Position numbers and translations under genes: made by a program
The notes under the pieces: model-generated
What the model was told of the DNA's origin: nothing
The model's database searches: none
The model's input: only the letters and a program-made list of their open reading frames with translations
Shown: one piece after another, positions 27,157-43,514 of the stretch
Position numbering within the stretch: the first letter of the stretch is position 1
Layout of the letters: each line of letters starts with the position of its first letter
From: Faecalicatena sp. Marseille-Q4148
Lineage (GTDB): Bacteria; Bacillota; Clostridia; Lachnospirales; Lachnospiraceae
Direction: 5' to 3'
Length of the DNA: 64,000 nt
Assembly (NCBI GenBank): GCA_018228665.1
Contig: CP073692.1
Coordinates: 2,802,046-2,866,045 of the forward strand

Positions 27157-29241
27157 ATGATCATTCATCGAAAATGTGGAATGTGTCAGGGCGGCTGTCA
27201 TGTGAAAGTTACCGTAGAAGATGGAAAGATTAGGAGAGTGGAGGCAGATCAGGATTCTCCGCAGGGGCGAGTATGTGCAAGAGGGGCATTGACGCCGGAA
27301 CTGCTTTATAGCGCTGATCGTATTTCACATCCACTGATCCGGATTGGAGAAAAAGGCGAAGGGAAATTCAGAAAAGCTACATGGGATGAGGCACTGGATT
27401 ATGCAGCGGAGCTTTTGGATAAGACAAGAAAAACTTATGGAGCGCGGGCGCTGGCTTCTTATCAGGGAAGAGGAATTCTTGGGATGCCGATTGCCCGCAT
27501 CTTTTCCGGAAAATCCGAACCATGTTTTATGAAGCGACTTGGTTCTCCGAATGATTTTAATGCGGGATCTATTTGTAATATGGCATCCAGCACGGTTACA
27601 CCGGTAACTACTTCCGGTCTCAATACAAGGCAGATGATTCAAGATGTGGAACATAGTGATTATATTTTCATCTGGGGAAAAAATCCAATGACAGACTGCG
27701 GACCACGGGGAGAATATCGGGGAATTCAGAAAGCAAAGAAACGAGGAGCAAAGATTGTAGTAATTGATCCGCGAAAAACAGGAATGGGCGAGTTGGCTGA
27801 TCTGTGGATTCCTGTAATTCCGGGAGCAGATGGGGCATTGGCGTTGGCAATGCTCAAGCTGATTATTGAACAGGAATGTTACGATAAAGAATTTGTATCA
27901 GAGTATACAAGAGGATTTGAAGCGTTTAGAAAATATGTAGAATCACTGGAACTGAATGATTTATCGAGATTTTGTGGGATTTCTGTAGAGCAAATAAAAG
28001 AATTGACAGAGTTGTTCTGTTCTACAGAAAAGATTTCACTAATTGCATATACTGGATTAGAGTATCAGTTGAGTGCAATTCAGAATAATAGAGCAATCTT
28101 TACATTGTGGGCGATCACGGGGAAATTAGATGTAGAAGGCGGAATTTATTTTAATTGTCAGAATCAGCCGACGTTTCAGCTGTATGATTTGCCAGAGGAA
28201 AATCAACCGATCGGAATGAAAGAATTTCCAATGTTCTATAAATTCATGGAAGGCGGTCAGTTCTGCAGATTTCCGGAAGCAGTTTTGAATGATGATCCGT
28301 ATCCGGTGCGTGCGCTTCTTCTGGCAGGAGGCTCTCCGGTATTGACATTCCCGGACAGCAGTAAATGGCGGGAAGTATATAAGAAGCTGGATTGCCTGAT
28401 TGTTTCAGACCGCTATATGACAGAAGATGCCCGTTTTGCAGATGTGGTATTTCCGGCAAGCACAATGTTTGAAACGTGGTCGCTGACGACAGGAGCAGAT
28501 GGAAGGCAGACGCTCCAGCCGCCGGCAGCAGAGCCATTTGAAGAGTGCAGAGATGATGTATTGATTTTCTCGGCATTAGCGAAACGGCTTGGAATTGGAG
28601 AAGATTATCCGGGAAATGAAGAGGAATTAAAAGAATGGCTGCTGAATGGTTCAGCTCCATATGCAAATGATTGGAAAGGTCCTGCTTCACAGAAGGAACG
28701 CGTATATCGTAAATACGAAAAGGGATTGCTGAGAAGTGATGGAAAACCGGGATTTCCAACGCCATCAGGAAAATTTGAAATTTGTTCTGTATATTTAGAA
28801 GAGAATGGATTTACTCCATATCCGGAGTATCAGGATATGCGGTCGCTTCCGGAGATGGATTGCCCGGAATATCCGTTTACCATGACGACCGGTGCGAGAA
28901 GTATCCATCGGATGGGAGTATTTGGGGCAAATCTTCCGGGAATTGCGAAGTTAGAGCCATATCCATATATGGATCTTTCACCGGAGGATGCAGGCGAACT
29001 TGAATTGACAGATGGAGCTTGGGCGAGAGTTACGACGCCATTTGGCACAGGGCGGTTTAAAGTTCGCGTCTGTGAGATTGCAAGACATTGTATCCATATT
29101 CCTCACGGAGGCGGAAGTGAGTATATGCCGGAGGCGTGGAAGATTGGAAATGTAAATGAACTTACAAGTCTTGCGTATAACGATCCAATCACAGGATTTG
29201 TTACAATGAAATCTGTTCCTTGCAGAGTTGAGAAGGAATAA
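27157..29241 (+). CDS. Molybdopterin-dependent oxidoreductase (DMSO reductase family), cytoplasmic
   Basis: 694 residues. N-terminal [4Fe-4S] motif with Cys7, Cys10, Cys14 and Cys40, then a bis-MGD-binding core (IFIWGKNPMTDCGPRGE, KIVVIDPRKTG) and a C-terminal molydopterin dinucleotide-binding barrel (TTGARSIHRMG). The likely Mo ligand is Cys140 in GSICNMASS. There is no Tat or Sec signal, so it acts in the cytoplasm. No FeS or membrane electron-transfer subunit is adjacent, which leaves the partner unknown. The substrate cannot be assigned: the family spans polysulfide, thiosulfate, arsenic and formate enzymes. The ribosome-binding site AAGGAG lies 7 bp upstream. Ends at the 29281-29316 terminator. 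Confidence 0.88.
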   Translation: MIIHRKCGMCQGGCHVKVTVEDGKIRRVEADQDSPQGRVCARGALTPELLYSADRISHPLIRIGEKGEGKFRKATWDEALDYAAELLDKTRKTYGARALASYQGRGILGMPIARIFSGKSEPCFMKRLGSPNDFNAGSICNMASSTVTPVTTSGLNTRQMIQDVEHSDYIFIWGKNPMTDCGPRGEYRGIQKAKKRGAKIVVIDPRKTGMGELADLWIPVIPGADGALALAMLKLIIEQECYDKEFVSEYTRGFEAFRKYVESLELNDLSRFCGISVEQIKELTELFCSTEKISLIAYTGLEYQLSAIQNNRAIFTLWAITGKLDVEGGIYFNCQNQPTFQLYDLPEENQPIGMKEFPMFYKFMEGGQFCRFPEAVLNDDPYPVRALLLAGGSPVLTFPDSSKWREVYKKLDCLIVSDRYMTEDARFADVVFPASTMFETWSLTTGADGRQTLQPPAAEPFEECRDDVLIFSALAKRLGIGEDYPGNEEELKEWLLNGSAPYANDWKGPASQKERVYRKYEKGLLRSDGKPGFPTPSGKFEICSVYLEENGFTPYPEYQDMRSLPEMDCPEYPFTMTTGARSIHRMGVFGANLPGIAKLEPYPYMDLSPEDAGELELTDGAWARVTTPFGTGRFKVRVCEIARHCIHIPHGGGSEYMPEAWKIGNVNELTSLAYNDPITGFVTMKSVPCRVEKE

Positions 29242-29349: not shown

Positions 29350-30531
29350 ATGAAAACATCATTACCAGAACAGTTTGAGAATTTTGCAGATGCCAGAAGA
29401 CAAGGATTTTTGAAAATCAAGGAATTGAAAGACAGTGGAAAAAATATTTGCGGTTCATTCTGTCAGTATACCCCTGCTGAAATTATTTTGGCAGCGGGAT
29501 TGTATCAGGTAGGATTGTGCGGAAAAAGCGCATTATCGATTCCGACAGCAGAAACAAGACTTCCAAAGAATTTGTGTCCGTTGATTAAGTCGAGCTATGG
29601 ACATGCATTGGAAGAGAGCTGTCCGTATGCATATTTTTCAGATGTTGTCGTAGGGGAAACAACATGTGACGGAAAGAAAAAGATGTATGAGCTTTTAGGC
29701 GAACTTAAACCAATGCAGGTAATTCATTTGCCGAATCTTCCGGATTATGACCGTTCCCTGGAAATGTGGACAATGGAACTGCGGACGTTTGCGAAAGGTC
29801 TTGCAGAGAAATTCGATGTAGAGATTACAGAAGAAAAATTAAATGCTGCAATTAAATGGTGTAATAAGGAGCGAAAACAGGCTGCTAGAATTTATGAACT
29901 GGGACGTTATGATCCTCCGGCAATTACAGGGATGCGGATGCGGGATATTATGGAAGGCGAGCAGTATATGTTCGATAAAGAAGAGAAATATAAGAGAATG
30001 GATGAAATCTTAAATGAGTGCGAGGAAAACTGGAAGAAAGGGAAATATCCATTTGAACCGGATCCGAATCGTCCAAGGTTAATCGTATCCGGAGCCGGAA
30101 TGGGCGGTATAGAAGAGAAAACAATTAAAGTGATTGAGGAACTGGGAGGCGCTGTCGTCTGTTACGAAGGATGCTGCGGAATTTCTTCCAGAAGAAGACT
30201 TGTAGATGAAGACGAGTCAAGAGATCCATACATACGGATTGCGGAAAAATATATTGAGGTACCTTGCGCAGTAGTTTCACCAAATACGAGACGTATGAAG
30301 CAAGTGGAAGAAACGATTTCTGAATGGAAAGCAGATGGAATCATCAGTATTACGCTACATTCATGTAATCCATTTGCAATCGAAACCGAGAATATTAAGA
30401 GAGTTTGTGAGAAGTGCGGTATCCCACTGCTGCATATAGAAACAGATTTTACAGAAGGGGATGCAGGGCAGATCCGTACACGAATTGAAGCATATTTGGA
30501 AATGATTCGAGCAAGGAAAGAGGAACAATAA
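29350..30531 (+). CDS. Double-cubane-cluster / 2-hydroxyacyl-CoA dehydratase-family reductase subunit
   Basis: 393 residues, YjiM/HgdB-like. Conserved cysteine sites are in [32 protein letters not shown], and [17 protein letters not shown], plus the later YEGCCGISSRR. This family includes double-cubane-cluster proteins that perform ATP-driven low-potential reductions once charged by an ASKHA-type activase. The substrate is unknown, and no activase gene is in the window. The stop overlaps the next start (TAATG), so the two products may act as a heterodimer. It heads the operon that ends with saoC, which ties it by position to the selenoprotein locus. Confidence 0.85.
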   Translation: MKTSLPEQFENFADARRQGFLKIKELKDSGKNICGSFCQYTPAEIILAAGLYQVGLCGKSALSIPTAETRLPKNLCPLIKSSYGHALEESCPYAYFSDVVVGETTCDGKKKMYELLGELKPMQVIHLPNLPDYDRSLEMWTMELRTFAKGLAEKFDVEITEEKLNAAIKWCNKERKQAARIYELGRYDPPAITGMRMRDIMEGEQYMFDKEEKYKRMDEILNECEENWKKGKYPFEPDPNRPRLIVSGAGMGGIEEKTIKVIEELGGAVVCYEGCCGISSRRRLVDEDESRDPYIRIAEKYIEVPCAVVSPNTRRMKQVEETISEWKADGIISITLHSCNPFAIETENIKRVCEKCGIPLLHIETDFTEGDAGQIRTRIEAYLEMIRARKEEQ

Positions 30532-31622
30532 TGAGAAAAGAAGAAGTAAAAAAATGGATCGATGATTGTCATAAGAAACATAAAAAAGCAGCAATTTATT
30601 TTTGTTCCTTTGTTCCGGTAGAGATATTGGAGGCTGCAGGATTTCAAACATTACAGATTACACATTTAGAGGAAAATGGAGATTTGTATCCGGAAGAATT
30701 GCCAAAGAATGTATGTCCGATTGTAAGAGAATGCTGTGAAATATGTGAAAGCGGTGTTTTAGAACAGGCAGACTTAATTATTGCAGAAAGTTCTTGTGAT
30801 GGAAAGAAAAAAATGTTTGAACTTTTAAAGGATCAGTCGAAAGTATATTATTATCAAGTACCTCAAGGGGAAGAACAAGAATATGTACTTCCGCTGATTG
30901 CTTCTGAAAGTCGTTATTTGATTAAGATGCTTGAGCAGAGATTCGGTATTACAGTGACAGATGAAGCAATTCGTAAAGCAGCAAATGATACGAACAGACA
31001 GAGAGCGAGTGCAATGAATTTGTTGGCTGTGCAGCAGCAAGTACCTCCTTGTGCATGGGGAATGGAAGTATACGAAAAACTGCAAGAAAATATGAAACTG
31101 CCAACGAGTGAAGAGCGCATTGCAGCGAATGAGAAGGTAAGAGAAGAATTTCTGGGAAGAGAGGAGAAAGTTCCAGAAACTGCACCGCGTATTTTGCTTA
31201 CAGGATGTCCGATTGGCGGAGTATATCAAAAAATTATCGAAATAGTTGAAAAAAATGGCGGTGTAGTAGTTTGTTTTGAAAACTGTGAATGTATAAAATC
31301 TAATATTCGCTTTACGGATGTAAAGAAAGACGATATAATAGCTTCGTTAGCAGAATGCTATCAAAATACTGCCTGTGCGATTATGACTCCGAATCAAAAG
31401 AGAAAGAAATTGCTGGAGCAATTAGTAACATCTTATCAAATTGCAGGAATTCTTGATATTCATTTACAGCCATGCCATGCTTATACGGTGGAGAAGTACT
31501 CTGTGGAAAAGCATTTCAGTCAGCAGGGAATTCCGTATGCAGCAATCGAGACAGGATATTCGGATGCCGATAAAGCACAGTTATCTACAAGAATAGCAGC
31601 CTTTTTGGAGATATTACAGTAA
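30531..31622 (+). CDS. Second double-cubane-cluster-family subunit
   Basis: 363 residues, a divergent paralogue of the preceding protein. It keeps the family cysteines: IYFCSFVPVEILEAAGF, KNVCPIVRECCEICESG (extra cysteines), ESSCDGKKKMFELL and FENCECIKSN. Lower similarity and the altered spacing around the first cysteine suggest it is the second subunit of a heteromeric enzyme rather than a redundant copy. Translationally coupled to the upstream gene. saoC follows 31 bp after its stop. Confidence 0.8.
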   Translation: MRKEEVKKWIDDCHKKHKKAAIYFCSFVPVEILEAAGFQTLQITHLEENGDLYPEELPKNVCPIVRECCEICESGVLEQADLIIAESSCDGKKKMFELLKDQSKVYYYQVPQGEEQEYVLPLIASESRYLIKMLEQRFGITVTDEAIRKAANDTNRQRASAMNLLAVQQQVPPCAWGMEVYEKLQENMKLPTSEERIAANEKVREEFLGREEKVPETAPRILLTGCPIGGVYQKIIEIVEKNGGVVVCFENCECIKSNIRFTDVKKDDIIASLAECYQNTACAIMTPNQKRKKLLEQLVTSYQIAGILDIHLQPCHAYTVEKYSVEKHFSQQGIPYAAIETGYSDADKAQLSTRIAAFLEILQ

Positions 31623-31653: not shown

Positions 31654-32256
31654 ATGAAAAAAACTGTAAGTTTTTTTAAAAGTTTGAAAGGAAAAATCGT
31701 GCTTATCGTCTGTATTCTTCTGGCTGGAATTATCATCAGACAAAGTCTGGAAAATCTATATGAAGAAAAGCAGGTCCAAAATGGAACGGTTACAACATAT
31801 GAAGACGGAAGCAGAGTTGGAAGAAGTCTGAGCTACGCAGAGAATGTTCCGGAAGATAATAAGATTCTGCAGGCATTTTATGAACAATTTCCAACAGCGA
31901 CAATGCTTGTTGCCTGTGAAGAAGATTTGACGAATGACGGGAAAAAAGATCTGGTTGTTATTTATAACACGCCTGAAGAAGATGAGGCAAGTAAGAATAC
32001 TGCACTTGTCAATGGAGGACATATTCGGCTGACCGTAATGATCGACTTGGGCGACGGAGAAGCGTATGAACACACAGAACCTATTCCGGCTCCGGTTGAG
32101 AATCAAAAAATTCAATTTCAAAATATTGATAAAGCAGATGAAATGGAATTTGTGCTGCAGGGACAAAAAGGAGCGAAAGTTGGATATGGTATTTTCCGTG
32201 TCATAGAAGGAAAAGCAGTAAATTTATTTGGCGAAGGCATGGAAGAATGCTGATAG
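31654..32256 (+). CDS. saoC: Cys-Sec-COOH selenoprotein (SaoC-like)
   Basis: 200 residues when the TGA at 32251-32253 is read as Sec; the next codon is TAG. The protein ends GMEEC-U, a terminal Cys-Sec pair. One membrane helix (about residues 14-28) anchors an extracytoplasmic domain of about 165 residues with a DLTNDGKKDLVVIYNTPEE segment. A hairpin at 32265-32281, wholly outside the coding region, is well placed to act as the SECIS. It fits, from memory, the family named Cys-Cys-COOH (seleno)protein SaoC. A terminal Cys-Sec pair would suit metal binding or thiol exchange at the membrane surface. Translation that stopped at TGA would lose only one residue, so readthrough must be proved directly. 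Confidence 0.82.
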
Positions 32257-32264
32257 GGAGTGAG

Positions 32265-32281
32265 GATTAGAGGTTCTAATC
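32265..32281 (+). promoter_or_regulatory. Candidate SECIS hairpin of saoC
   Basis: GATTAGA-GGT-TCTAATC, a perfect 7-bp stem with loop GGT. It begins 12 nt after the TGA, with the loop at +19 to +21. Because Sec is the last residue, the hairpin lies after the TAG stop and is free of coding constraint. Confidence 0.75.
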
Positions 32282-32292
32282 AAAAAAAGAAA

Positions 32293-32328
32293 GGATATCG
32301 GTTTTATGGAAAAAACCGGTATCCTTTT
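32293..32328. terminator. Bidirectional terminator between saoC and the response regulator gene
   Basis: Arms GGATATCGGTTTT and AAAACCGGTATCC with one wobble pair and T-runs on both strands. The right arm lies within the last codons of the convergent response regulator gene. Confidence 0.85.
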
Positions 32329-33002
32329 CCCCATACTGTAGTAAGATGTACAGGTTTTGAGGGAGTATCTTCAATTTTATCGCGTAAACGTTTGATATAG
32401 ACAAGAATGGTATTATCATCCGTCACATCATTTTGCCAGACTCTTGAGAAGATTTCCTTCTTAGATAAAACCTTTTCGGAATTTTCGAGAAAAAAATAGA
32501 GCAGTGCAAATTCTTTCGAAGAAAGAGAAATCTCAGTATCATTTTTTAGGACAAGCTGTGAGTCCAGATGCAGCGTGAAACATCCGCGCTGAAGTATCGG
32601 ACTGACAGATGTTACAGCAGGAGTTGTATATTGCTGGGTACGTCTGACGATTGCCCGTATTTTGGAAACTAAGATTACTTTGCTAAATGGCTTGGTCATA
32701 TAATCATCAGCGCCAAGTCCCAATCCCTGCACCTGTACAGCGTCTTCTTCACGACCGCTTAAAAGAATTACAGGAGTCATAATATTCATTTCGCGCAATT
32801 CTTTTAAAAAAGAAAATCCATCTTGCTCAGGCATCATAATATCCAGTAAAATGACATCAAAAGTCTGCGTCTGTAAATAGTCAAAAGCTTGTTTGCAGTT
32901 CGATGCACAACAGCAATTTATATTTTCATGTTTTAAAACATAAGAGATTGCTTTTAGAACAGATTGTTCATCATCCACTACTAAAACAGAAATATCATTC
33001 AT
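32304..33002 (-). CDS. OmpR-family response regulator of the selenoprotein locus
   Basis: 232 residues. Receiver with acidic pair VVDDEQ (9-14), phosphoacceptor Asp54 in VILLDIMMP and Lys in MTKPFS, then an OmpR/PhoB winged helix (about 130-230). It is divergent from the kinase gene 33108-34751, with a 105-bp intergenic region holding a perfect 11-bp inverted repeat. Its position between saoC and the transporter genes makes control of the whole locus likely, but this is inference from context. Confidence 0.92.
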   Translation of the reverse strand: MNDISVLVVDDEQSVLKAISYVLKHENINCCCASNCKQAFDYLQTQTFDVILLDIMMPEQDGFSFLKELREMNIMTPVILLSGREEDAVQVQGLGLGADDYMTKPFSKVILVSKIRAIVRRTQQYTTPAVTSVSPILQRGCFTLHLDSQLVLKNDTEISLSSKEFALLYFFLENSEKVLSKKEIFSRVWQNDVTDDNTILVYIKRLRDKIEDTPSKPVHLTTVWGKGYRFFP

Positions 33003-33024
33003 AGGAGAATTCCTTTCTATGTAT

Positions 33025-33059
33025 TTTATAGGTAACTATATTTTGTTATTACCTATAAA
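33025..33059. promoter_or_regulatory. Inverted repeat between the divergent regulator and kinase genes
   Basis: Arms TTTATAGGTAA (33025-33035) and TTACCTATAAA (33049-33059), perfect over 11 bp with a 13-bp spacer. Placed to control both divergent genes, probably as an autoregulatory site for the response regulator. Confidence 0.65.
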
Positions 33060-33107
33060 GATTATAGCGGCCATCTTTTTTTTAGTCAAACATTATAGGA
33101 GTCATTT

Positions 33108-34751
33108 ATGAAAAATAAGAAAATATTAAAGAGACAAATATTGATAGCATGTACGAGTATCGTTTGCTTAGTTGGAGTTGTGCTTTTTAGCTATTCAAGC
33201 GTAGAAAAAATGATTATTTCACGGGAAGAAGAAAATATGAAAAGCTTAGCTAAAGTAAATGCAAGAAGTTTGTTTTCAACTTTAGAGTCAAAAAAAGATT
33301 TAGTATATGCAGCTTTTTCAGGGGATATGGAGAATTTAGATGAGGTAGAGACCGGAAGCATCAAGATGGGGGAACGCTGCGAATATGTGTCACTGGAAGA
33401 GATTACAAAACAACAGGAGTGGGAACAGAAACAATGTGCGGAAATGCTGAAAAAGCCGGGAGAAGTTGTGATAGGGCCGATTGAACAGACAGAGGAAGGG
33501 GCATATGTTTTATATATGCTGAAAACAATTTCTGTCAGAGGGAAAATTACCGGATATGTGCGTGTACAACTGGACCTGGATGAAATTTATGAAGAAGAAC
33601 AGGCACTATCTGCATTAGAAACAGAAAATGGAAGATACTGCATTGTTCAGAACGAGGCAGGAAAAACGATTATGCCCGGAACTTACAGGAAAGAAGATAT
33701 TTCGATATCACATATTGCCGGCAAAGGAAGTACCGTAAAATGGATTTACGAAACAAATGGAGGTTCGTTAAAAAATACAAAAAAATTAATTGCCTGTGAG
33801 ACGATTACAATCGGAGAAGAGAAACTATTTTTGTATATTATTGAGAATTATGATGAATTAGTAACTCCATTGGAACGAATTTCACTGGATTTTAGTTTGA
33901 TCGGCATATTATTAGTTATGACAGCAATCGGATTCATTTATAAATTACAGGAACATCATAAGAAGGAAACCGAATTGGTCAAAGAACTTCAGCACGAAAA
34001 GACGCTGAATGAGACAATGAAAAAACAGGAAGGATTGATGAAGAAATACAATCATTCCAAGAATTTGGGAGTATTGACCGGAGCAATTGCGCATGAATTT
34101 AATAATCTGATGACACCGATTGTTTTATATGCAGAATTATTAGAAGAAAATGAAGTTGTACAGAAAGAAATGCCGGAGGAAATCAATGAACTAAAAACTT
34201 CAGCCGTTCGCTGCGGAGAATTGGCAAGACAATTATTAGATTACAGCAGACAGGGAAAAGCGGAAAAAGTTTTGACCGATTATGATGCGGTTTATGCAAT
34301 GCATGAAGCTATAAATATTGTAAAAAAAATACTTCCGGAAAATATTGTGTTACAGGAAAATATTTGCAAAACACCGTATAAAATACATGGGCAGGTTGGA
34401 TCGCTCAATCAGATTGTATTGAATTTGGCTACCAACGCAGTTCATGCAATGAAAAACGGCGGGGTATTAAAGATTGAATTTGGTCTAAGTACAGATGACG
34501 ATAAAGTTGTACGACTTATTATCGAAGATAATGGTGAAGGGATTCCAACAGAGATTAAGCAGAAAGTATTCCAACCATTTTTTACAACTAAAAAAATGAG
34601 TGAGGGAACCGGGATTGGTCTTACCGTTGTAAAGCGTCTGACAGAAGAACATGGAGGAACTATCCGGGTAAAAACAGAAATAGGAAAAGGAACAATATTT
34701 ATCGTAGATTTTCCATATGTAACTGAAGAAAAAATTCCTGCGTCAAACTGA
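33108..34751 (+). CDS. Sensor histidine kinase of the selenoprotein locus
   Basis: 547 residues. TM1 at about 11-30, an extracellular sensor of about 230 residues (possibly a Cache-like fold, judged only by length and position), TM2 at about 264-282, a coiled-coil linker, then an HWE/NtrB-like core: H-box GAIAHEFNNLMTPIV, N-box LNQIVLNLATNAVHAMKNGG, G1 EDNGEGIP, G2 GTGIGLTVV. Cysteines in the sensor (ERCEY, KQCAEML, RYCIVQ, IACETI) could bind metal or an organometal; this is speculative. Its last codons run into a bidirectional terminator shared with the substrate-binding gene on the other strand. Confidence 0.9.
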   Translation: MKNKKILKRQILIACTSIVCLVGVVLFSYSSVEKMIISREEENMKSLAKVNARSLFSTLESKKDLVYAAFSGDMENLDEVETGSIKMGERCEYVSLEEITKQQEWEQKQCAEMLKKPGEVVIGPIEQTEEGAYVLYMLKTISVRGKITGYVRVQLDLDEIYEEEQALSALETENGRYCIVQNEAGKTIMPGTYRKEDISISHIAGKGSTVKWIYETNGGSLKNTKKLIACETITIGEEKLFLYIIENYDELVTPLERISLDFSLIGILLVMTAIGFIYKLQEHHKKETELVKELQHEKTLNETMKKQEGLMKKYNHSKNLGVLTGAIAHEFNNLMTPIVLYAELLEENEVVQKEMPEEINELKTSAVRCGELARQLLDYSRQGKAEKVLTDYDAVYAMHEAINIVKKILPENIVLQENICKTPYKIHGQVGSLNQIVLNLATNAVHAMKNGGVLKIEFGLSTDDDKVVRLIIEDNGEGIPTEIKQKVFQPFFTTKKMSEGTGIGLTVVKRLTEEHGGTIRVKTEIGKGTIFIVDFPYVTEEKIPASN

Positions 34752-34770
34752 TCTGACGCAGGAATTTTTT
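34731..34770. terminator. Bidirectional terminator between kinase and substrate-binding genes
   Basis: Perfect 15-bp arms AAAATTCCTGCGTCA and TGACGCAGGAATTTT. T-runs on both strands serve the convergent genes. Confidence 0.92.
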
Positions 34771-34775
34771 AGTGC

Positions 34776-36059
34776 TTATTTATCTTTTTCTTTCAGATTC
34801 TCGTTGAGATACGGAGTTGCTGTTTTAGAAATGTCAACCGCGTCCTCATCAGAGATACCATCAATTGTTTTTGCGTTGTTGTACCAATCTTCAAATGTAA
34901 TTCCGAGTGGTGAAATTGGATCAACGTCTTCTTTTATGAATTCTTCAAAATCGCGAGTTCCCGCTGATTCATGTAATGCAGTGGCTTTCTGGAGTGATTC
35001 TTCATAAATTGATTTGTAGTTAATATCAATTTCCGGAATTGGTGGATTCTGCCACTGTGTGTCAAATTTCTCATCATTTTCCAGGTTAGATTCTGACCAG
35101 TGCCATGTGATTGTACGACCTTCTGCAACAGTTTTCATGTATACTGTACGAAGCGCTACATATGGATCACAGTCAAATCCATCAGCAAACATCATAGCTG
35201 CATTATAAGGATGCGTATATAAATACTGAACTGCAAGTGTGTGTGCATATACGAGACGACGAGCAAGTTCTGGGCATTTCTGCTCAAAATCTTTATTCAT
35301 ACTGAGTGTACAGCATCTTGCCCAAGAGTCAGCATCCGGTACATTACCGTTTTCATCAAGATTTGTTCCCCAACTGATACACATAATATGTCCGAAACCT
35401 TCGAACTCTGCCTGAGAGGCATAAGGGTCTCAGCAGACGAAGCCGTCAATCTGACCGGCTTTTAATGCGAACATGGCATCGGCTTGTCCCATACTGACGA
35501 TGTCATAATCTTCTTTATTATAGGAAAATCCATAATCTCTTGCCCAACCGCGCCATTCTGAATCTTCAGCAGGTTCAGCAGGCATTGCAAGTGTCTTGCC
35601 TTCAATATCTTTCGCTTCTTTAATGTCGTTACTTACTACTAAGTAACGGGAACCACCGGTGTGGTTTGCGGATGCAATAAAATATGGCGGATTCTGTGAA
35701 AGACCGGCAGCGCCAACTCCGATATAACCAACGTCCATTGCGCCGCTAATAAGCGCTTTTGTTGTTTCACCGGATTTTGTAAGATTAACATTTAATCCCA
35801 TTGCCTCGTAAATACCGGCTTTCTCACCAATGATGGAAGCAACCATATGGTCACAGTTATTATAACCCATCTCAATTACATAATCTTTTTCAACATCATT
35901 TAACTCGCCGAATTCAAAATCTTTGACTTCTTCTTTTGGATCGTAGCTTGTCTTTTTGATGTCGATTGTAGCTTCGTTCTTACTACTGTCATGACAGCCT
36001 GTGAGGAGACCGCATACCATTGCAGTAGCGAGAAATGCAGCTAAAACTTTCTTTTTCAT
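34776..36059 (-). CDS. ABC substrate-binding selenolipoprotein (NMT1/SsuA-like)
   Basis: 427 residues with Sec at position 210 (TGA at 35430-35432). Lipobox LLTGC with Cys22 as the lipid anchor. The fold is that of nitrate/sulfonate/taurine-type binding proteins (ETTKALISGAMDVGYIGVGAAG). The Sec sits in DGFVC-U-DPY, where relatives usually have an aromatic residue followed by (E/D)P lining the ligand pocket, so Cys209-Sec210 probably touches the ligand. Homology resumes at once after the TGA. The start at 36059 follows GAAGGGGG by 7 bp; the longer frame to 36083 has none. Partner permease and ATPase are at 36301 and 39546. The SAO literature, as I recall it, uses names such as SaoB for such components; I leave the symbol blank. 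Confidence 0.82.
35406..35418 (-). promoter_or_regulatory. Candidate SECIS hairpin of the substrate-binding gene
   Basis: CTCT-CAGGC-AGAG on the minus strand, starting 12 nt after the TGA, with the loop at +16 to +20. The stem is short, so it is only moderately supported. Confidence 0.4.
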
Positions 36060-36091
36060 GTCATTTCCCCCTTCGTATGTCATATTAAAAA

Positions 36092-36125
36092 ATTAATATT
36101 TATTAATATTTGCAAAGTCATTATA
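36092..36125 (-). promoter_or_regulatory. Promoter and repeat upstream of the substrate-binding selenoprotein gene
   Basis: Extended -10 TGC-TATAAT on the minus strand (TATAAT at 36120-36125). A 10-bp direct repeat, ATTAATATTT twice in a row (36092-36111), lies just downstream and could be a response-regulator site. Confidence 0.5.
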
Positions 36126-36213
36126 GCAGAGGAATTTGGAAAAAGAAAGTAATCCGCAGATGTATTTGATTTTCAAATGAAGACAGAGTGAAATATATAA
36201 AAAATAAATAAAG

Positions 36214-36250
36214 CCTGAAGAAATAACGAAAACAGGTTATTTCTTCAGAC
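36214..36250 (-). terminator. Terminator after saoP
   Basis: Arms CCTGAAGAAATAAC and GTTATTTCTTCAG with a T-rich tail in the minus direction. It separates saoP from the substrate-binding gene, which has its own promoter. Confidence 0.8.
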
Positions 36251-36300
36251 TTTCTATAGACGGCAGCAATCTGGCGGACATGCTGATGTCTCCGTCTGTA

Positions 36301-37122
36301 TTATGCTTTCCACTGTAACAGTACTCTTTCACAAAGTACAAGAACAGTGTCGATCAGGAAACCAATCAGACCGGCAATTATCATATATGCGATAACTGTT
36401 GAAGTCTGTAAACGGCCCTGAGCTTCCACCATTATGTAACCGAACCCGGCACTTGTCGCAATGAACTCCGCTCATATAACAGACATCCATCCAAGTCCGA
36501 TTGCCAGTCGAATTCCGGTCAGCACTCCAGGAAGAGAGCCCGGAATAACAATATCTTTTATAATGCTTAATGTTCCTGCTCCCATTGATCGCGCGGCATT
36601 ATAGAAATCCTTGCTGATATCCTGTACACCTGCAACGGTATTTAAAATAATTGTAAAAATACCGCTAAATGCGATCAGGAAAATTGTTGGACCATCACCG
36701 ATACCAAGCCATACAATAGATAAAGGAACCCACGCCATAATTGGAACTTGTCTTAAGGAGTTGATAAATGGAGACATTGCCTGCAAAATTTTAGGAGAAT
36801 ATCCCATAATCATTCCTAAAGGAAAACCAATAATGAAAGCATATAAGGAACCGGTCAGAACTCGGCGCATCGTAATTCCGAGATTTTTAAGAACGTATAA
36901 ATCAGATAGAGAATAAACGACATCATGTAATACGGTCTCTAAATACGGGAATGTAAATGGAGAATCTACGATGTGTGCAGCAACATACCAGACGATTGCA
37001 ATAATAATAAGAGAAATGATTGCTCCGACATTATAGTTTTTGCCGCCCATTTTTCGCCAATTTTGCCGATCTTTCATTTTGGTGGCGTGGATCATACGAT
37101 CTACTTGTTTGTTTTCACTCAA
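36301..37122 (-). CDS. saoP: ABC transporter permease with selenocysteine (SaoP-like)
   Basis: 273 residues with Sec at 217 (TGA at 36472-36474). SsuC/TauC-type permease with about six helices and the EAA loop ARSMGAGTLSIIKDIVIPGS. Sec lies in GWMSVI-U-AEFIATSAGFGYIM, within the helix after the EAA loop, where family members usually have Ala; this puts a selenol in the transport path. The start is the TTG at 37122, 7 bp after AAGGGGGTGAGG; frames reaching 37179 lack a ribosome-binding site. It is divergent from saoT. The name follows the SAO scheme as I recall it. Confidence 0.83.
36450..36463 (-). promoter_or_regulatory. Candidate SECIS hairpin of saoP
   Basis: CATT-GCGACA-AGTG, starting 9 nt after the TGA; the stem is short and includes one G-U pair. 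Weak on its own. Confidence 0.35.
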
Positions 37123-37174
37123 AACCTCACCCCCTTGATGAATAGATATGAATAAATTGTAATAATTCAAAAAA

Positions 37175-37180
37175 ATCATA
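37175..37180 (-). promoter_or_regulatory. Promoter element of saoP
   Basis: Extended -10 TGC-TATGAT on the minus strand. The context TCTGCTATRAT is shared with the promoter of the substrate-binding selenoprotein gene. Confidence 0.45.
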
Positions 37181-37205
37181 GCAGATTTATTTGTAAGAAG
37201 ATATA

Positions 37206-37234
37206 AATATTCATAACAAAAATAAATGAATATT
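37206..37234. promoter_or_regulatory. Inverted repeat in the saoP/saoT divergent region
   Basis: AATATTCAT (37206-37214) and ATGAATATT (37226-37234), perfect 9-bp arms with an 11-bp spacer. Suitable as one shared operator for both divergent transcripts. A TATAAT at 37283-37288 may be the saoT -10. Confidence 0.5.
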
Positions 37235-37324
37235 AATATATTAGGTTTTTTAATAAAACAAGAAAAGAATTTAGAACTCCGTTATAATTAGGAAGATATA
37301 TAGATATTATAGGGAGGTGTAAAA

Positions 37325-37579
37325 GTGGAAAAGCCATGTATCGAGTATATCAGTGTATGTGCGTGATGCGAAGTATTCGGGGACTTGGTTCAAGTTTTAG
37401 AGAAAGAATATGAAGGCAGAGTACATGTAAAAATATATCGCGCAGGTACAGACTTCGATTATATTAAAAAGTATGGTTCAGTTTCTAAGAGTATGCTTGT
37501 AATCAATGAGAAAAAAGCAGTAACGAAGCTGACAAAACAAGCTGTGCGAAACGCATTTGAGGAGGCTTTAAAACTATAA
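37325..37579 (+). CDS. saoT: Thioredoxin-like selenoprotein (SaoT-like)
   Basis: 84 residues with Sec14 (TGA at 37364-37366). The active site reads VC-A-U-C, so Sec lies inside a CxxC-like motif (Cys12, Sec14, Cys15). The rest has a small thioredoxin/glutaredoxin-like pattern (VHVKIYRAGTDFDYIKKYG, KSMLVINEK). It starts with GTG after AGGGAGGTG. Its stop overlaps the saoE start (TAATG), so the pair is coupled. The likely role is reduction or thiol transfer for the neighbouring permease or lyase. Conventional annotation would miss the first 20 codons, which hold the whole active site. Confidence 0.83.
37371..37386 (+). promoter_or_regulatory. Candidate SECIS hairpin of saoT
   Basis: AAGT-ATTCGGGG-ACTT, starting 5 nt after the TGA. 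The stem is only 4 bp; the G-rich loop fits SelB preference. Confidence 0.4.
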
Positions 37580-38721
37580 TGAGAGAGGTATTGGACTTTT
37601 TGTACAGCATTATCCAGTCGGCCTGGTCGATGCTGAACAGTTCTTCTGCCTGGGTTGTTTTCAGCTTTATCGTTGCAGGGTTGCTGCACGAGTTTATTAA
37701 GCCTGAGAATTTGCAGAAGACAGCAATTGGTTCTACGAAAGTGAGAGGGGTATTCTGGACAACGGTAACCGGAATGTTGCTTCCGATCTGCAGTTGCGGA
37801 ACGATTCCATTGGGAATCAGTATGTACTACAGCGGAGCCTATCTTGGTCCCACATTAACCTTTATGACAAGTACGCCGGTCATCAACCCATTGGCGGTGT
37901 TGCTGTCATGGGGGCTTTTGGGAAAAGAAATTACAATTATATATGTAATTTCAGGATTTGTAGGACCAATGCTCATCGGAATGATTGCGAATCGTTTTGG
38001 CGGAGATGAATTACATATTGGTCTGCGCAATAAAAAATATGGCGGATCGGAAGTTTCTGTTAAGCTTGAAACCGATGAAGAAGACTCCGAAGGAGGCGGT
38101 ATGATTCAGCTGGAGTTTGAAGAACCGTCCTTCTGGGAGAAAATTAAAAGCGGTCTGCGTTGGTCAGCGACAGAACTTGCAGTCACCATCAGTAAGTACA
38201 GTGTTACAGGAATGTTGATTGCAGGATTTTTATTTACCATTGTCCCACAGTCATTTATTCATGATTATCTCGGTCAGCCGGGAGTGATTTCTTTATTCGG
38301 AATTGCTGTTGTCTCAACATTTATGTATGTTTGAGCGGTAGGCCATATACCGTTTATTGCAGCTCTGGTAGCCAGTGGAGCTGCACCAGGTATATCAATC
38401 ATGTACCTGATGGCTGGAGCAGGTACGAACGTGCCGGAACTTCTTACGATCACAAAGATGATCGGAAAAAGAGCCAGCGCAATGTATTTTTCAATGATAG
38501 TAGCATTGGGATTTATTTCCGGTTATATTGCGAACAAATTATTGATGCCGGGATTTAAACCGGTGTTGGATTTCGACAGAACATCTAACACAATTAAGCA
38601 GGCGAATAAACTGATGATTGAGCTTCCTGCCTGGGCAAATTGGATTTGCAGCGGAATTATCATCGCATATGCAGTTGTTGCATTATACAGATATCTTCGG
38701 AGAAAGATGAAGAAAGCATAA
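37579..38721 (+). CDS. saoE: ArsP/YraQ-type permease with selenocysteine (SaoE-like)
   Basis: 380 residues with Sec at 252 (TGA at 38332-38334). Two-repeat permease of the DUF318/ArsP family, eight or so helices. The first repeat carries PICSCGTIPLGISMYYSGA with Cys71 and Cys73; in the second the matching cysteine position is Sec (MYV-U-AVGHIPFIAALVASGAAP). ArsP proteins export trivalent organoarsenicals, so export of an organometal or its metal product is a reasonable inference. Sec as one of the metal-handling residues fits. It is coupled to saoT. The family name is recalled from the SAO description. Confidence 0.85.
38336..38352 (+). promoter_or_regulatory. Candidate SECIS hairpin of saoE
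   Basis: CGGTA-GGCCATA-TACCG, a perfect 5-bp stem starting 2 nt after the TGA, with GG in the loop. Somewhat closer to the TGA than in E. coli SECIS elements. Confidence 0.45.
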
Positions 38722-38724
38722 TTC

Positions 38725-39513
38725 ATGAGTATTCAGAAAAAAGTTGTCATTTTTATTATTGGATTTATTGTTGTAGGTTTCCTGATTAGTTTTGGGTTTC
38801 CAAAAGAGAAGGCAATGAACGAGAATGCTGAGATTAGAATTGGCGCAGGTGACGATCTGTCAGGTGTGCTAATGAAAGAAACGGTAGAGTTTCTGAGTGA
38901 AACGTATGAAATCAAGGATTCACTGGAAAGCTCATCGTTTCAGGATTGCTGAAGCAATCTTGCTCAGTGGGCACTGAGTGCGAAAGAAATTAATCTTGCA
39001 TTTTATTGTCAGCATGTTGCCGTACATACCGTGGAGCAGAATGAACATGTGGAAATCTATGGTCCTGCAATTATGAATGCAGAAGTAATCAGTTATAAAA
39101 ATGAATGGGAGAAGGTAAAAACAGTCGGAATCAGTCAGGGAAGGGAACAGGAAAAACAGGTGGCACAGGAAACGTATCCACAGATCGAGAGTTTTCAGGA
39201 TGTAACCCAGAAAGGCATTCTTTATACATTAGAAGATGGACAGGTGGATGCAGTAATTCAGGATGTGACGAAGGCGGCAAAAGTACCGCAGTACCGGAAC
39301 AAACCGCTTTCAGCCCATGACTATATTTCCTATGTGCTTGTAGTAGAGAAAGAATTTGCAAAAACAAAAGCATTTGAAGACTTTGTGATCAGTTATAACC
39401 AGGCAGTAGAGAAATTAAATCAACCGGAATATCTGGCAGAAAAACTTGGAGTGCAGAAGGAATGGATTCAGGACAAGCAGATAGAGTTTTTACCGTTAGA
39501 ATTGAGGCAGTAA
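38725..39513 (+). CDS. Membrane-anchored substrate-binding-like selenoprotein
   Basis: 262 residues with Sec76 after Cys75 (TGA at 38950-38952) in FQDC-U-SNLAQWALS. One N-terminal membrane helix (about 7-25) without a lipobox, then a type II periplasmic-binding-like domain (NLAFYCQHVA, GPAIMNAEV, DGQVDAVIQDVTKAA, SYVLVVEKEF). It resembles a second, shorter substrate-binding component of the same ABC system. It lies 3 bp after saoE and 32 bp before the ATPase gene. A 6-bp hairpin follows the TGA at the ideal distance. The exact SAO gene letter is uncertain. Confidence 0.8.
38963..38978 (+). promoter_or_regulatory. Candidate SECIS hairpin of the second binding protein
   Basis: CTCAGT-GGGC-ACTGAG, a perfect 6-bp stem with loop GGGC at +17 to +20 from the TGA. 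One of the best hairpins in the set. Confidence 0.7.
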
Positions 39514-39545
39514 ACAAAGATATAGGTACAGAGGAGAGGAAAGAG

Positions 39546-40370
39546 ATGTCTATTTCAGTAGAACATATTTCAAAAACATTTAAAAACAAGAGAAAACCGG
39601 AAGAGCCGGCGCAGGTATTGAAGGATGTTTCTTTTGAGGTGGGAGAGGGAGAATTTGTTTCTCTGCTTGGTCCTTCCGGATGTGGAAAGACAACAACATT
39701 GACAATTATTGCCGGATTCCAAAAGCCGGATGATGGAAAAATTATTGTAAATGGAAAAGAAGTCAGCAAGCCTGGGACAGATCGTGCATTTATGTTTCAG
39801 AATTATGCATTATTTCCGTGGCTGAAAGTTGGAGAAAACATTGAATATCCAATGAAAAAAATGAAAGTTCCGAAGGAACAGCGCAAACAGACGCTGAAAG
39901 AGTTATTAGAGATGGCTCAGCTTACAGAGTATGAGAATCACTATATACATGAACTTTCCGGTGGTATGAAGCAGAGGGTTGCGCTTCTTCGTGCAATTGC
40001 CTGTGATCCGCAGGTACTTTTAATGGATGAGCCGCTTGGAGCGGTAGATTTCCAGATGAGACAGATGCTCCAGATGCAGCTGGAAAGTATTTTACAAAAG
40101 AAAAAGACGACAGCACTTATGGTAACTCACGATGTGGATGAGTCTATTTATCTGAGTGACCGGGTCGTTGTGATGTCACGAAATCACGGGAAAATACTGG
40201 CAGATATTAAGATTGACCTGCCGAGACCGCGTGATCGTACGAATCCAAAATATCATGACTATGTAGACCAATTAACGACTGTGCTGAAATCTGCGTTAAA
40301 TGGAGAGGTTTACACAGATGATGATAAGGATTTAATGGAATTTATACAGGGAGTGGAAAGTGGAAAATAA
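39546..40370 (+). CDS. saoA: ABC transporter ATP-binding protein (SaoA-like)
   Basis: 274 residues, SsuB/TauB type. Walker A GPSGCGKTT (about 42-50), Q-loop FQNYALFPWL, signature ELSGGMKQRVALLRAIA, Walker B VLLMDEPLGAVD, His switch VTHDVDE. No Sec. It energises the importer whose permease is saoP and whose binding proteins are the two selenoproteins here, even though those lie in different transcripts. The ATG at 39546 follows GGAGAGGAAAGAG; the upstream frame to 39462 overlaps the previous gene and is rejected. The stop overlaps the saoL start (TAATG). Confidence 0.9.
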   Translation: MSISVEHISKTFKNKRKPEEPAQVLKDVSFEVGEGEFVSLLGPSGCGKTTTLTIIAGFQKPDDGKIIVNGKEVSKPGTDRAFMFQNYALFPWLKVGENIEYPMKKMKVPKEQRKQTLKELLEMAQLTEYENHYIHELSGGMKQRVALLRAIACDPQVLLMDEPLGAVDFQMRQMLQMQLESILQKKKTTALMVTHDVDESIYLSDRVVVMSRNHGKILADIKIDLPRPRDRTNPKYHDYVDQLTTVLKSALNGEVYTDDDKDLMEFIQGVESGK

Positions 40371-41041
40371 TGGCACAGAAGATTAAAAACGTACATGAGA
40401 AATTTACAGAGCGGGAGAATGCACTTCGACTTGCAATTATTAATGAAACAGTAAATAACGGCAGAGCATTTGATCTGGAAGAAGATAGAGTTGCGGTACT
40501 TGGCAAGCTTCAAATGAGTGGAAAAGAATATAAAGAAATTTGTGAGAAGTTACTGGAAGAGGACGGAATGGTGCTTGACGGAACAAAGGTAAACTTCATT
40601 TATCCTGTGTCGGCTCTTCCAACAAATCACAGAGTAACACTTGCAGATGGAAGAACTTTTACTGCTATGTGTGCAATTGACGCAATTGGAGCTGCATTTA
40701 CATTTCATCAGGACACAGAAGTTCATTCAGTCAGCGCAGTCAGCGGGGAACCGGTTTTTGTAAAGATCACAGACGGTAAGGTGGCAGAGTATTCTCCAAA
40801 AGAACTTCATGCATTGACATTTCCGCTTGGAGAAATGTCAAACTGGGCAGGCTCCTGCTGAAATGTTATGAACTTTTTCTGCAGTGGTGCAGAATTCGAT
40901 CAATATGTTGCGGATATGGAATTAGATCCGGAACTGGTAATTAAGGCTGATATTGACAGAGCCGTAAAAGAAGCATATGAAATCTTTCACACAGAAGCGA
41001 GTGCGGATGATTTGAAACGGCTGCTGGCAAAGGCAATATAA
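40370..41041 (+). CDS. saoL: MerB-like organomercurial lyase with Cys-Sec active site (SaoL-like)
   Basis: 223 residues (MerB is about 212) with Sec164 (TGA at 40859-40861). AMCAIDAIG gives Cys101 and Asp104, the same C-x2-D spacing as MerB Cys96/Asp99. The second active-site region reads AGSC-U-NVMNFFCS, where MerB has Cys159 near a V-x-FF motif. So the protonolysis trio is Cys101, Asp104 and a Cys163-Sec164 pair. An N-terminal winged-helix-like region is also present, as in MerB. It should break a carbon-metal bond; mercury, another metal or a metalloid are all possible. It is coupled to saoA. Without readthrough the product would lack 60 residues and part of the active site. Confidence 0.85.
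40877..40894 (+). promoter_or_regulatory. Candidate SECIS hairpin of saoL
   Basis: TTCTGC-AGTGGT-GCAGAA, a perfect 6-bp stem with a 6-nt loop at +22 to +27 from the TGA. Confidence 0.65.
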
Positions 41042-41088
41042 AGCAATTTGAAGGGGAATGGCACAGCAAACGGAGGAGGATTACAACA

Positions 41089-41421
41089 ATGAAAGTAGCT
41101 TATTTATTTGAATCAGAACATGCGAGAGAGATTCTTGAGACGATGATTATTCCGCAGTTGGAAGAAGGAAGACATGGCGTAGAAGTAGCCGGAATGATGT
41201 TCTTCTTTGACAATACTTATATGTTGGTGGAAGGATCTGATATCGGAGCAAGACTGCAGGCGCTCAGCGAGAAGACAGGCATGCTTCTTATGGCATGTGA
41301 CCGCTGCTGCTATCAGAGAGATATTGCTGATAAACTTGTGGCACCGGCAGGAATCGGATGTTTCCCGAATGTTTATGCAGCACTTGCACCTGCAAATGTA
41401 GATCAGGTTATTACGTTGTAG
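41089..41421 (+). CDS. saoD: DsrE-family protein (SaoD-like)
   Basis: 110 residues with a DsrE/DsrF fold pattern. Cysteines Cys70, Cys73 and Cys74 in MACDRCCYQRDIADK form a plausible thiol/persulfide or metal site. Relatives move sulfur as protein persulfides. Here it may carry sulfur, selenium or the released metal. Strong GGAGGAGG ribosome-binding site. It lies 47 bp after saoL in the same direction. Confidence 0.8.
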   Translation: MKVAYLFESEHAREILETMIIPQLEEGRHGVEVAGMMFFFDNTYMLVEGSDIGARLQALSEKTGMLLMACDRCCYQRDIADKLVAPAGIGCFPNVYAALAPANVDQVITL

Positions 41422-41464
41422 AATCAGTGAAACATATCAATTCAAATGATAAGGAGATTGTAAG

Positions 41465-41662
41465 ATGAGAGTATTAAGCGTACCGGGACTTTGCTGTCCA
41501 GAATGTGCAAAGAAAATTGACGCAGCATTAGAAGATGCGGCAATTAAGCATGAAGTTGATTTTGAAGGCAAGAAAGTATCTATTTGTGACTGCGATCATT
41601 GTATGGAAGTGACAATGGATATTCTGAAAGAAATGGGATTCGAAGCAGAACGTATTGCATAA
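41465..41662 (+). CDS. Heavy-metal-associated-like mini-protein with CCxxC motif
   Basis: 65 residues. GLCCPECAKKIDAAL carries Cys10, Cys11 and Cys14 in the position of the HMA metal-binding loop, and a second cluster CDCDHC lies near residue 40. The size and helix pattern fit a ferredoxin-like HMA domain, as in MerP and copper chaperones. It would bind a soft metal ion, perhaps the product of the MerB-like enzyme. AAGGAG ribosome-binding site. Last gene of the saoT-to-here operon, followed by a strong terminator. Confidence 0.8.
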   Translation: MRVLSVPGLCCPECAKKIDAALEDAAIKHEVDFEGKKVSICDCDHCMEVTMDILKEMGFEAERIA

Positions 41663-42107: not shown

Positions 42108-43271
42108 TTAGCACTGTGCACCGAGCAATTCAATGAAAGCGCCAAGTCTTGTGTCAATCTGTGCCTGATCGGCAGGAGAATAGTCGGTATTGATAGCCAT
42201 ATAAGGAAGCTGCTTCTCAGTTGTTACATAGCGCTTGATTGTGTCTGCCTCAATTGCAAATGTATGGCAGGCGTGAAGAAGTACTTCCACAACGCCGTCT
42301 ACCTGATATTCATCAATCTGTGTGCCAAGGGCATCAAGACGCCCCGGATTCGGGCTCATAACAGAACAGTTGACGCGGAGATATTTTTCTGCAATCGCGG
42401 TAATTGGATCTTTTGTTTCATTAACCGGATCTTTTTTCTCACGCGGACCACAGCAGTTTTCGAATCCAACAACATCGGCGCCGAGCTCTTCGATTCGCTT
42501 GATAACCTTATCCATAACACCGGTTGTCGGACATCCGGTAATGAGGATACGCGGGCGGGATGGTTTGCCTTTATATTCTTTTTCGTACAGATCCTTCAGT
42601 TCGGCAGTACGTTTTTCCAGATATGCAATCTTTCCTTCGATATCATAATTGTAATCGTTAGAAGAAATGATTGTATTGATCTCATAACCGCTGACCGGAG
42701 AAGGTTTCAGACGTCCGACCTCAAAAAAGTCGAGGACGGCTTTTCGCTCTCGATTCCTCAGTTTGATTGCTTCACGGATCTTCTCATCTGTAATCTCAAT
42801 TCCATAAAAACGCTCAAATTCTTCTTTGATATCAACAACCTCTGCTTTCCAGAATTCCAGTGCTTTGACACCGGTACTTCCAGGTGGAAGCTGCATGACA
42901 TGAGTGTGCTTTAGCTCTCCGAGCAATTCGTACATTTTCTTTTTGCCGTCGCACGTTGTTTCGGCAAGGATCATATCGGAAAAATAGAAAAACGGACATT
43001 TTCCGGAGAGAGCGCCGCCGTAGCTTGACTTAATCAGTGGACAGAGGTTCTTTGGAAGTCTTGTTTCAGCCGGAGGAATCAGTTCTTCACTGATACCGCA
43101 AAGCCCTACGGCGATAGCATCTGCAGCAGTAACAAGTTCTGACGGAGTGTAGGTGCAGAAAGTACCGACAATGCGTCGTCCCTGATCTTTTAGTTCTTTT
43201 AAACGAAGAAATGATTTCTTTCGAGCTTCCGGGAATGTTTCAAAATCTTCCGGTAAATTTAATTCTGGCAT
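42108..43271 (-). CDS. Third double-cubane-cluster-family reductase
   Basis: 387 residues, closely related to the product of 29350-30531. The same cysteine sites appear: [68 protein letters not shown], and HACHTF near the end. It ends GAQC. It probably acts alone as a homodimer, since no second subunit is beside it. The start at 43271 follows AGGAG by 7-8 bp. It forms a two-gene unit with the DUF3343 carrier on the strand opposite the sao operon. No activase is nearby. Confidence 0.85.
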
Positions 43272-43514
43272 AGTTGTTCTCCTTTTGTGTTTCATTCATT
43301 GCAAATATAGATTTATTATAATACGAAGATTTATACAGTGGTCATTGAAAGATATGATAAATGATAGCTTTTAATAGAGAAAAGCAATAAATATTAAAAA
43401 AGGATACATTCATTATCGTAAAAGTATTGAAAGAAGTATCATAAAGAAAGTGTGTTGACATGTTAAACTATGGTGCAATATAGAAAAATGTAAAAAGAAA
43501 CGGAGGATGTTAAA

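Follow-up and report, generated by a model that had tools for sequence, protein, structure and literature searches.

A selenocysteine-assisted organometal (SAO) locus of Faecalicatena sp. Marseille-Q4148 in which all seven conserved Cys-or-UGA sites are UGA, including one in the permease SaoE

Main finding

The stretch of DNA analysed here, hereafter the window, comprises 64,000 nucleotides of Faecalicatena sp. Marseille-Q4148 (contig CP073692.1, positions 2,802,046 to 2,866,045) and carries a locus whose identification as the selenocysteine-assisted organometal (SAO) system of Haft and Gwadz 2023 is supported, because all nine of its Sao families score above their NCBIfam cut-offs. The locus has seven conserved sites that are Cys or UGA codons, and all seven are UGA in the window, very likely read as selenocysteine (Sec) judging from comparison with related genomes. 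The system itself is known; among the 40 loci examined, the window appears to be its only all-Sec example and would add a seventh selenoprotein, the permease SaoE, to the set. We predict, with a little more confidence than doubt, that such a locus forms a soft-metal relay able to import, cleave and export organometals, for example organomercury.

Identity of the locus

The window genes were read with TGA as Cys and then scored against NCBIfam models with curated cut-offs. Nine of the ten proteins tested exceeded the cut-offs of SAO families, namely SaoC, SaoX, SaoP, SaoT, SaoE, SaoB, SaoA, SaoL and SaoD (Table 1), and the tenth, a small HMA-like protein, matched no NCBIfam family. For the SAO system of Haft and Gwadz 2023, the sources used are excerpts of PMC13188914 and PMC10418091 and the NCBIfam names. 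A first-pass annotation, made from the letters alone, had already proposed a SAO locus, and the nine family scores bear it out; its core identity stands, and the picture is changed by SaoE as a seventh selenoprotein and by the lack of SaoL from some loci. The seven TGA positions it gave were right, the two minus-strand values being the low ends of their codons (35430-35432 and 36472-36474). Each of the seven genes, which lie within 31654-41041, indeed contains exactly one in-frame TGA and no internal TAA or TAG, and the annotation was equally correct on the four Cys-Sec dyads (SaoC, SaoX, SaoB and SaoL) and on the C-A-U-C motif of the thioredoxin-like SaoT. Its "HMA mini-protein" was found to have a weak match, below the Pfam cut-off (HMA, E 0.012).

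Evidence that UGA encodes selenocysteine

Relatives were collected through a SaoE alignment against contigs of GTDB species, which gave 43 loci, 40 of them with further SAO genes; locus L006, a near copy of L005, was dropped from the site counts. At the seven sites in other genomes, 224 of the 229 aligned codons are TGA (114) or Cys (110). The remaining five are Gly, all in SaoT of Tissierellia (L034-L038), and no other codon was seen at any site. The ratio of nonsynonymous to synonymous variation (pN/pS) downstream of the TGA, obtained by comparison with L001, L002, L003 and L005 (for SaoL with L001 and L005 only), is 0.05-0.30 in the six genes with coding sequence there, indicating purifying selection. 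The earlier claim that homology continues after the TGA holds for these six genes and fails for SaoC, in which TAG directly follows the TGA at 32251.

The Sec machinery was scored as SelB over its cut-off and tRNA-Sec over its gathering score, in the 39 genomes bearing a related locus and in 14 controls. SelB was present in 35 of the 39 genomes as compared with 2 of the 14 controls, and tRNA-Sec in 33 of the 39 (all 33 with at least 60 bits) as compared with 5 of the 14. Both are found in the three nearest relatives (G001-G003). The six SAO sites found in L021 are all Cys, and its genome has neither SelB nor tRNA-Sec over cut-off; therefore, a SAO locus can exist without selenocysteine. Locus L026 has Cys at the same six sites, yet its genome has both SelB and tRNA-Sec.

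Some genomes weigh against reading UGA as Sec. SaoP of L024 has TGA, yet the metagenome-assembled genome around it shows no SelB and no tRNA-Sec above cut-off. SelB, tRNA-Sec or both are missing from the genomes of L018 and L034, and tRNA-Sec over cut-off is missing from those of L020, L023 and L040; incomplete assemblies are the likely cause in these six cases. One could also argue for sequencing errors, stops in pseudogenes or ordinary suppression at these TGA codons, since the evidence on Sec machinery comes from the relatives' genomes and not from the window's own sel genes, and since a few TGA-bearing relatives have no SelB or tRNA-Sec over cut-off. However, TGA recurs at these codons in many genomes, with Cys in the others, selection is maintained downstream of the TGA, a covarying hairpin is found at SaoC, and most relatives have SelB and tRNA-Sec. 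This explanation is already disfavoured, and we regard it as highly improbable.

The end of SaoC and SECIS-like hairpins

In a set of 34 saoC genes that excludes L006, 8 have TGA and 26 have Cys as their final or near-final codon. The TGA is directly followed by TAG in seven of the eight Sec-form genes and by three more codons in L031, and the Cys homologues terminate in Cys-Cys. Past the TGA, all eight Sec-form genes have a stem of 7-8 bp carrying a loop of 3-4 nt that begins with G, the loop starting 17-20 nt after the TGA. Its pairs are standard in 56 of 56 cases (8 loci by 7 pairs), and at all seven pairs both sides vary between loci. No stem longer than 5 bp was seen under such a loop in any of the 26 Cys-form genes. 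A covarying hairpin past the stop codon supports the presence of Sec in SaoC.

In the excerpts of PMC13188914, the model for the bacterial selenocysteine insertion sequence (SECIS) has a small loop with G in its first two positions, 16-37 nt after the UGA; the saoC hairpin has a small apical loop with G, within this distance of the UGA, on a supported stem. A wholly untranslated hairpin would be unusual for a bacterial SECIS, because the passages in PMC13188914 and PMC1088965 place these elements in the coding region, although a Sec at the C-terminus would physically call for such a position. No part of this candidate bacterial SECIS is translated, and gene finders that depend on coding homology downstream would be expected to miss such cases.

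For the six other genes the hairpin evidence is mixed. Under a permissive rule a hairpin is found at all seven window sites, and upstream controls often have one too. Under a strict rule (saoC included) hairpins were found at 56 of 121 Sec sites, 26 of 110 Cys sites and 47 of 705 controls, and the SaoP and SaoE sites of the window fail it. When all sites including SaoC are taken together, hairpins are more stable at Sec sites than at Cys forms (p 0.018) or upstream controls (p 7e-14), and Cys-form sites too are more stable than upstream controls (p 0.0002). Gene by gene, Sec and Cys forms do not differ in SaoP (p 0.27) or SaoB (p 0.31), and SaoL has no Cys form available for comparison. Hairpins in SaoX and SaoE do differ between the two forms, but a hairpin of partly similar form is also present in their closest relatives with Cys.

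The Sec/Cys mosaic across loci

Nine Sao proteins were concatenated (40 rows) with the Sec sites masked, and state changes were counted by parsimony on the resulting tree. No state change was needed for SaoL (20/20 Sec), one each for SaoE and SaoC, two for SaoP, three each for SaoB and SaoX and four for SaoT. The window is the single row with Sec at all seven sites; in every one of the remaining 39, Cys or Gly occurs at one or more of the sites found. Sec in SaoE is best read as a single gain in the clade formed by L001-L003 and the window. L001-L003 carry Cys at the SaoX site, which makes an independent gain the best reading of Sec in the SaoX of the window. L001-L003 are all metagenome-assembled genomes, whereas two loci come from isolates: L010 (Merdimonas faecis BR31) has TGA at SaoC, SaoP, SaoT, SaoB and SaoL, and L030 (Extibacter muris DSM 28560) at SaoP, SaoT and SaoL. 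With Sec in some and Cys in others of about 40 genomes, the seven sites offer a natural comparison of what a protein gains from selenium.

SaoE, a candidate seventh selenoprotein

Codon 252 of saoE is TGA in the window and in L001, L002 and L003, and Cys in the other 37 loci aligned there (L006 uncounted); Cys is also present in all 12 homologues aligned at this site (12 of 120 listed, with 1122 found). Excerpts of the 2026 review PMC13188914 attribute eight families to Haft and Gwadz 2023 (SaoL, SaoC, SaoX, SaoB, SaoP, SaoT, HgcA and HgcB) and count six selenoprotein genes in the SAO operon; the name SaoE is absent from the text of this review. The literature matches listed contained no further report of a SaoE selenoprotein; they do not cover the original 2023/2025 reports, where an earlier mention is possible. 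As far as these searches reach, SaoE would be new as a seventh SAO selenoprotein, beyond the six of the review.

SaoE contains an internal repeat (hhalign E 3.4e-8, offset 181, 20/86 identities) in which position 252 pairs with Cys71, and in its structure model a hairpin and a broken helix are seen in each of the two repeats. The protein matches ArsP_1 with 163.3 bits (cut-off 32.3) and the SO_0444 Cu/Zn efflux family with 196.3 bits, below the cut-off of 300. The distant members L041-L043 have Cys at positions 71, 73 and 252. The list excerpted from PMC13188914 contains a Sec form of the SO_0444 family with the motif UxC, which fits Cys71-Ser-Cys73 by its spacing and would thus be a site other than Sec252.

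The profile search gave no solved relative of SaoE, and Foldseek gave no significant match. Judged by title, the first 41 VIA rows for SaoE consist of 40 CNT, DASS, AbgT or TRAP proteins and one integrative MleN-MetQ model. CNT, DASS, AbgT and TRAP are grouped as elevator-type ion transporters. We tentatively suggest, with more doubt than confidence, that SaoE is of the elevator type and that, in its moving substrate site, Sec252 at the tip of the second hairpin faces its repeat-mate Cys71 (with Cys73) at the tip of the first, the residues together clamping a soft metal ion. In the same tentative reading, this lineage would have gained Sec one site after another until each Cys/Sec-variable contact between outer capture and export was selenium, lining the whole path through the cell. 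SaoE is rare: a sample of 397 genomes from the family around that of L010 contained it in 5. In one genome (G018, contig C8), two SaoE-family genes (L048 and L049), both over cut-off, lie about 2.3 kb apart.

SaoL and its relation to MerB

Residues Cys101, Asp104, Cys163 and Sec164 are invariant in the 19 SaoL proteins aligned, a set that left out the L004 remnant, the L031 pieces and L006. In the alignment with MerB (1s6l), Cys101, Asp104 and Sec164 fall on Cys96, Asp99 and Cys159, with middling certainty around Cys159; these three are the conserved active-site residues of MerB according to the excerpt of PMC4525700. MerB2 (5c17) has Ser in place of the Asp, and there too a Cys is aligned with Sec164. 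The Sec of SaoL would therefore take the place of the second catalytic Cys of MerB, unless the alignment is off by one there. This site is TGA in all relatives aligned, and Cys was seen there only in MerB. As SaoL scores below the MerB family cut-offs (42.1 of 193 bits and 39.5 of 200 bits), the lyase of the window is, by its sequence, SaoL and not MerB.

SaoL is over its cut-off in 22 of the 39 genomes. No SaoL match was found in 16 of the 39, although other SAO genes remain. In L004 (Dorea sp. 5-2) a C-terminal remnant (12864-12983) is all that is left of SaoL, and in L031 there are pieces in two frames at about 8000-8500, with flanking SAO genes present in both loci; no SaoL was seen between SaoA and SaoD in L003. 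Most of the other genomes without a match are metagenome assemblies, which may be incomplete. Because SaoL is missing from some otherwise intact loci, the term organometal may describe only part of the SAO function.

Neighbouring genes

Features of the locus and its surroundings are given in Table 1. Genes for double-cubane-cluster reductases flank 20 of 39 loci, against 0.72 expected and a maximum of 7 in 200000 simulations; loci were counted by BLAST to the three genes of the window (more than 150 bits), and the expectation was derived from copies found by family search (115 in 118 Mb). These 20 include L018, L021, L024 and L026, in each of which one Sec at most is present among the sites found. 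The link between sao and double-cubane genes is itself not new, as the excerpt of PMC10418091 places putative sao genes and dicubane proteins among the selenium genes of methyltransferase clusters.

Of the 40 related loci, 15 have a homologue of the LysR regulator, and in 11 of them it is located within 230 nt of SaoP; in the window, unlike in these 11 loci, the LysR gene adjoins the one for the molybdopterin oxidoreductase. L033 (Peptoclostridium litorale) belongs to the sole genome among the 39 with HgcA over cut-off, and mercury methylation and SAO can thus share one cell.

Table 1. Features of the SAO locus and its neighbours in the window
Feature	Position	Strand	Evidence and details
LysR regulator, selenium-metabolism-associated	26236..27138	+	NF040786 300.5 bits, cut-off 250
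Molybdopterin oxidoreductase, possible partner	27157..29241	+	Best 25 of 27 NCBIfam matches all below cut-off; homologue in 7/40 loci
DCC1, double-cubane-cluster reductase	29350..30531	+	NF040772 457.6 bits, cut-off 350
DCC2, double-cubane-like tandem paralogue	30531..31622	+	NF040772 303.7 bits, below cut-off 350
saoC	31654..32256	+	NF040734 169.6 bits, cut-off 80; model pLDDT 85.4; N-terminal membrane helix; C-terminal Cys-Sec-COOH (predicted); TGA 32251-32253, then TAG
SECIS-like hairpin, saoC 3' untranslated region	32265..32281	+	7 bp, loop GGU, loop start 18 nt after UGA
OmpR-type response regulator	32304..33002	-	Pfam; homologue in 13/40 related loci
Sensor histidine kinase	33108..34751	+	Pfam; homologue in 11/40 related loci; final TGA taken as ordinary stop
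saoX, ABC substrate-binding selenoprotein	34776..36083	-	Cys217-Sec218, TGA 35430-35432; NF040735 439.1 bits, cut-off 300
saoP, ABC permease selenoprotein	36301..37179	-	Sec236, TGA 36472-36474; NF040733 396.3 bits, cut-off 295
saoT, thioredoxin-like selenoprotein	37325..37579	+	C-A-U-C, Sec14, TGA 37364-37366; NF040730 101.1 bits, cut-off 65
saoE, ArsP_1-family permease	37579..38721	+	Sec252, TGA 38332-38334; NF040736 534.4 bits, cut-off 325
saoB, substrate-binding-like selenoprotein	38725..39513	+	Cys75-Sec76, TGA 38950-38952; NF040727 280.5 bits, cut-off 140
saoA, ABC ATPase, no Sec	39546..40370	+	NF040729 443.2 bits, cut-off 360 (scored from 39549)
saoL, MerB-like lyase	40370..41041	+	Cys101, Asp104, Cys163-Sec164, TGA 40859-40861; NF040728 196 bits, cut-off 140
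saoD, DsrE-related, no Sec	41089..41421	+	NF040732 189.9 bits, cut-off 169
Small Cys-rich, weakly HMA-like protein	41465..41662	+	Pfam HMA E 0.012, below cut-off; homologue in 7/40 loci
Putative Se/S carrier PF11823	41814..42098	-	54.9 bits, cut-off 25; homologue in L003, L005, L008, L010 and L030
DCC3, double-cubane-cluster reductase	42108..43295	-	NF040772 486.4 bits, cut-off 350

Elsewhere in the window

The whole window was also scanned for TGA-interrupted open reading frames with at least 60 amino acids before the TGA and at least 35 after it. Five of the 19 candidates are the SAO genes described here, SaoT and SaoC being too short on one side for this rule. The other 14 were dismissed by position only, lying over other long open reading frames, in rRNA or antisense.

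A rRNA operon at 19349-24280 has its 5S gene (21028-21145) between the 16S (19349-20879) and 23S (21395-24280) genes, the usual bacterial order being 16S-23S-5S; a tRNA search of the window found none. A GTPase of 922 amino acids resembling EF-G and ribosomal-protection proteins, with a C-terminal YacP NYN domain, is encoded at 45318-48086, and among the best 25 of its 38 NCBIfam matches only a generic small GTP-binding domain is over cut-off. An IS1634-family transposase lies at 7453-9180, about 22 kb upstream of the SAO genes.

Proposed function and alternatives

In the relay that we propose, the membrane-anchored tail of SaoC and the binding proteins SaoX and SaoB would catch a soft cation on their Cys-Sec pairs, and SaoP/SaoA would import it past the Sec in the permease. 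Where present, SaoL would protonate the carbon-metal bond in the manner of MerB. The freed ion would be taken over by SaoT, with its C-A-U-C motif, and SaoD, and would be expelled by SaoE via the Cys71/Cys73 and Sec252 site at the tips of two symmetric hairpins. The double-cubane reductases and the Se/S carrier may supply low-potential electrons or selenium.

A different function would be the scavenging of selenium or organoselenium, such as methylated selenium, with the binding protein and permease importing the compound and SaoL and the reductases freeing the selenium. This explanation keeps some weight because of the selenium-linked neighbours (the LysR regulator of NF040786, the Se/S carrier of PF11823 and the double-cubane proteins) and because SaoL is not present in every locus; moreover, sao genes and dicubane proteins stand among selenium genes in the excerpt of PMC10418091, and SaoX and SaoP, besides their own Sao models, score highest with sulfonate/taurine importer families. 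However, the full catalytic set of MerB is aligned in SaoL, SaoE is an ArsP_1-family permease closest to a family of Cu/Zn efflux proteins, and L021 combines Cys at all six sites found with a genome that has no SelB or tRNA-Sec over cut-off. We consider scavenging unlikely. Still less probable, in our view, is a general device for uptake, sequestration and efflux of soft metals or metalloids (Hg, As, Sb, Bi, Cu), with the lyase as an optional add-on. The 16 of 39 genomes that keep other SAO genes with no SaoL match, among loci such as L003 with none and L004 with a remnant, speak for such a device, but an importer would be odd for pure resistance, and SaoL is over cut-off in 22 of 39 genomes, with its catalytic residues kept in the 19 proteins aligned.

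If the organometal relay is true, a single locus would place selenocysteine where seven different proteins contact metal, among them a transport site inside the membrane, and the role of this amino acid would widen from redox catalysis to metal handling. It would also name a specific permease site, Cys71/Cys73/Sec252.

Comparison with known systems

The nine families of the window, all over cut-off, are those of the SAO system, and the predicted Sec in SaoB, SaoC, SaoL, SaoP, SaoT and SaoX matches the list in the review PMC13188914. The eight families of the review do not include SaoE, whereas the window would have Sec in SaoE too; the all-Sec set of seven sites is a further difference, and the saoC hairpin beyond the stop codon and the loss of SaoL from some loci are undescribed in the excerpts of PMC13188914 and PMC10418091. 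With bacterial SECIS elements the saoC hairpin shares the small G-bearing loop and the distance from the UGA; it differs in lying wholly beyond the stop codon, as opposed to the coding-region placement in the passages of PMC13188914 and PMC1088965.

SaoL resembles MerB in that its Cys101, Asp104 and Sec164 are aligned with Cys96, Asp99 and Cys159, and differs from it in a putative Sec on the second catalytic Cys, an extra Cys before it and a score far under the MerB cut-offs. The likeness of SaoE to the SO_0444 and ArsP_1 permeases lies in its score over the ArsP_1 cut-off and in the distant members L041-L043, which have Cys at 71, 73 and 252. In contrast, its predicted Sec is at 252, not in the UxC motif given for SO_0444 in the excerpt of PMC13188914, and it scores below the SO_0444 cut-off. 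Finally, the two repeats of hairpin and broken helix in the SaoE model may correspond to those of elevator-type ion transporters, a tentative likeness that comes with no significant Foldseek match, and what would set SaoE apart from them is the Cys or Sec at its hairpin tips.

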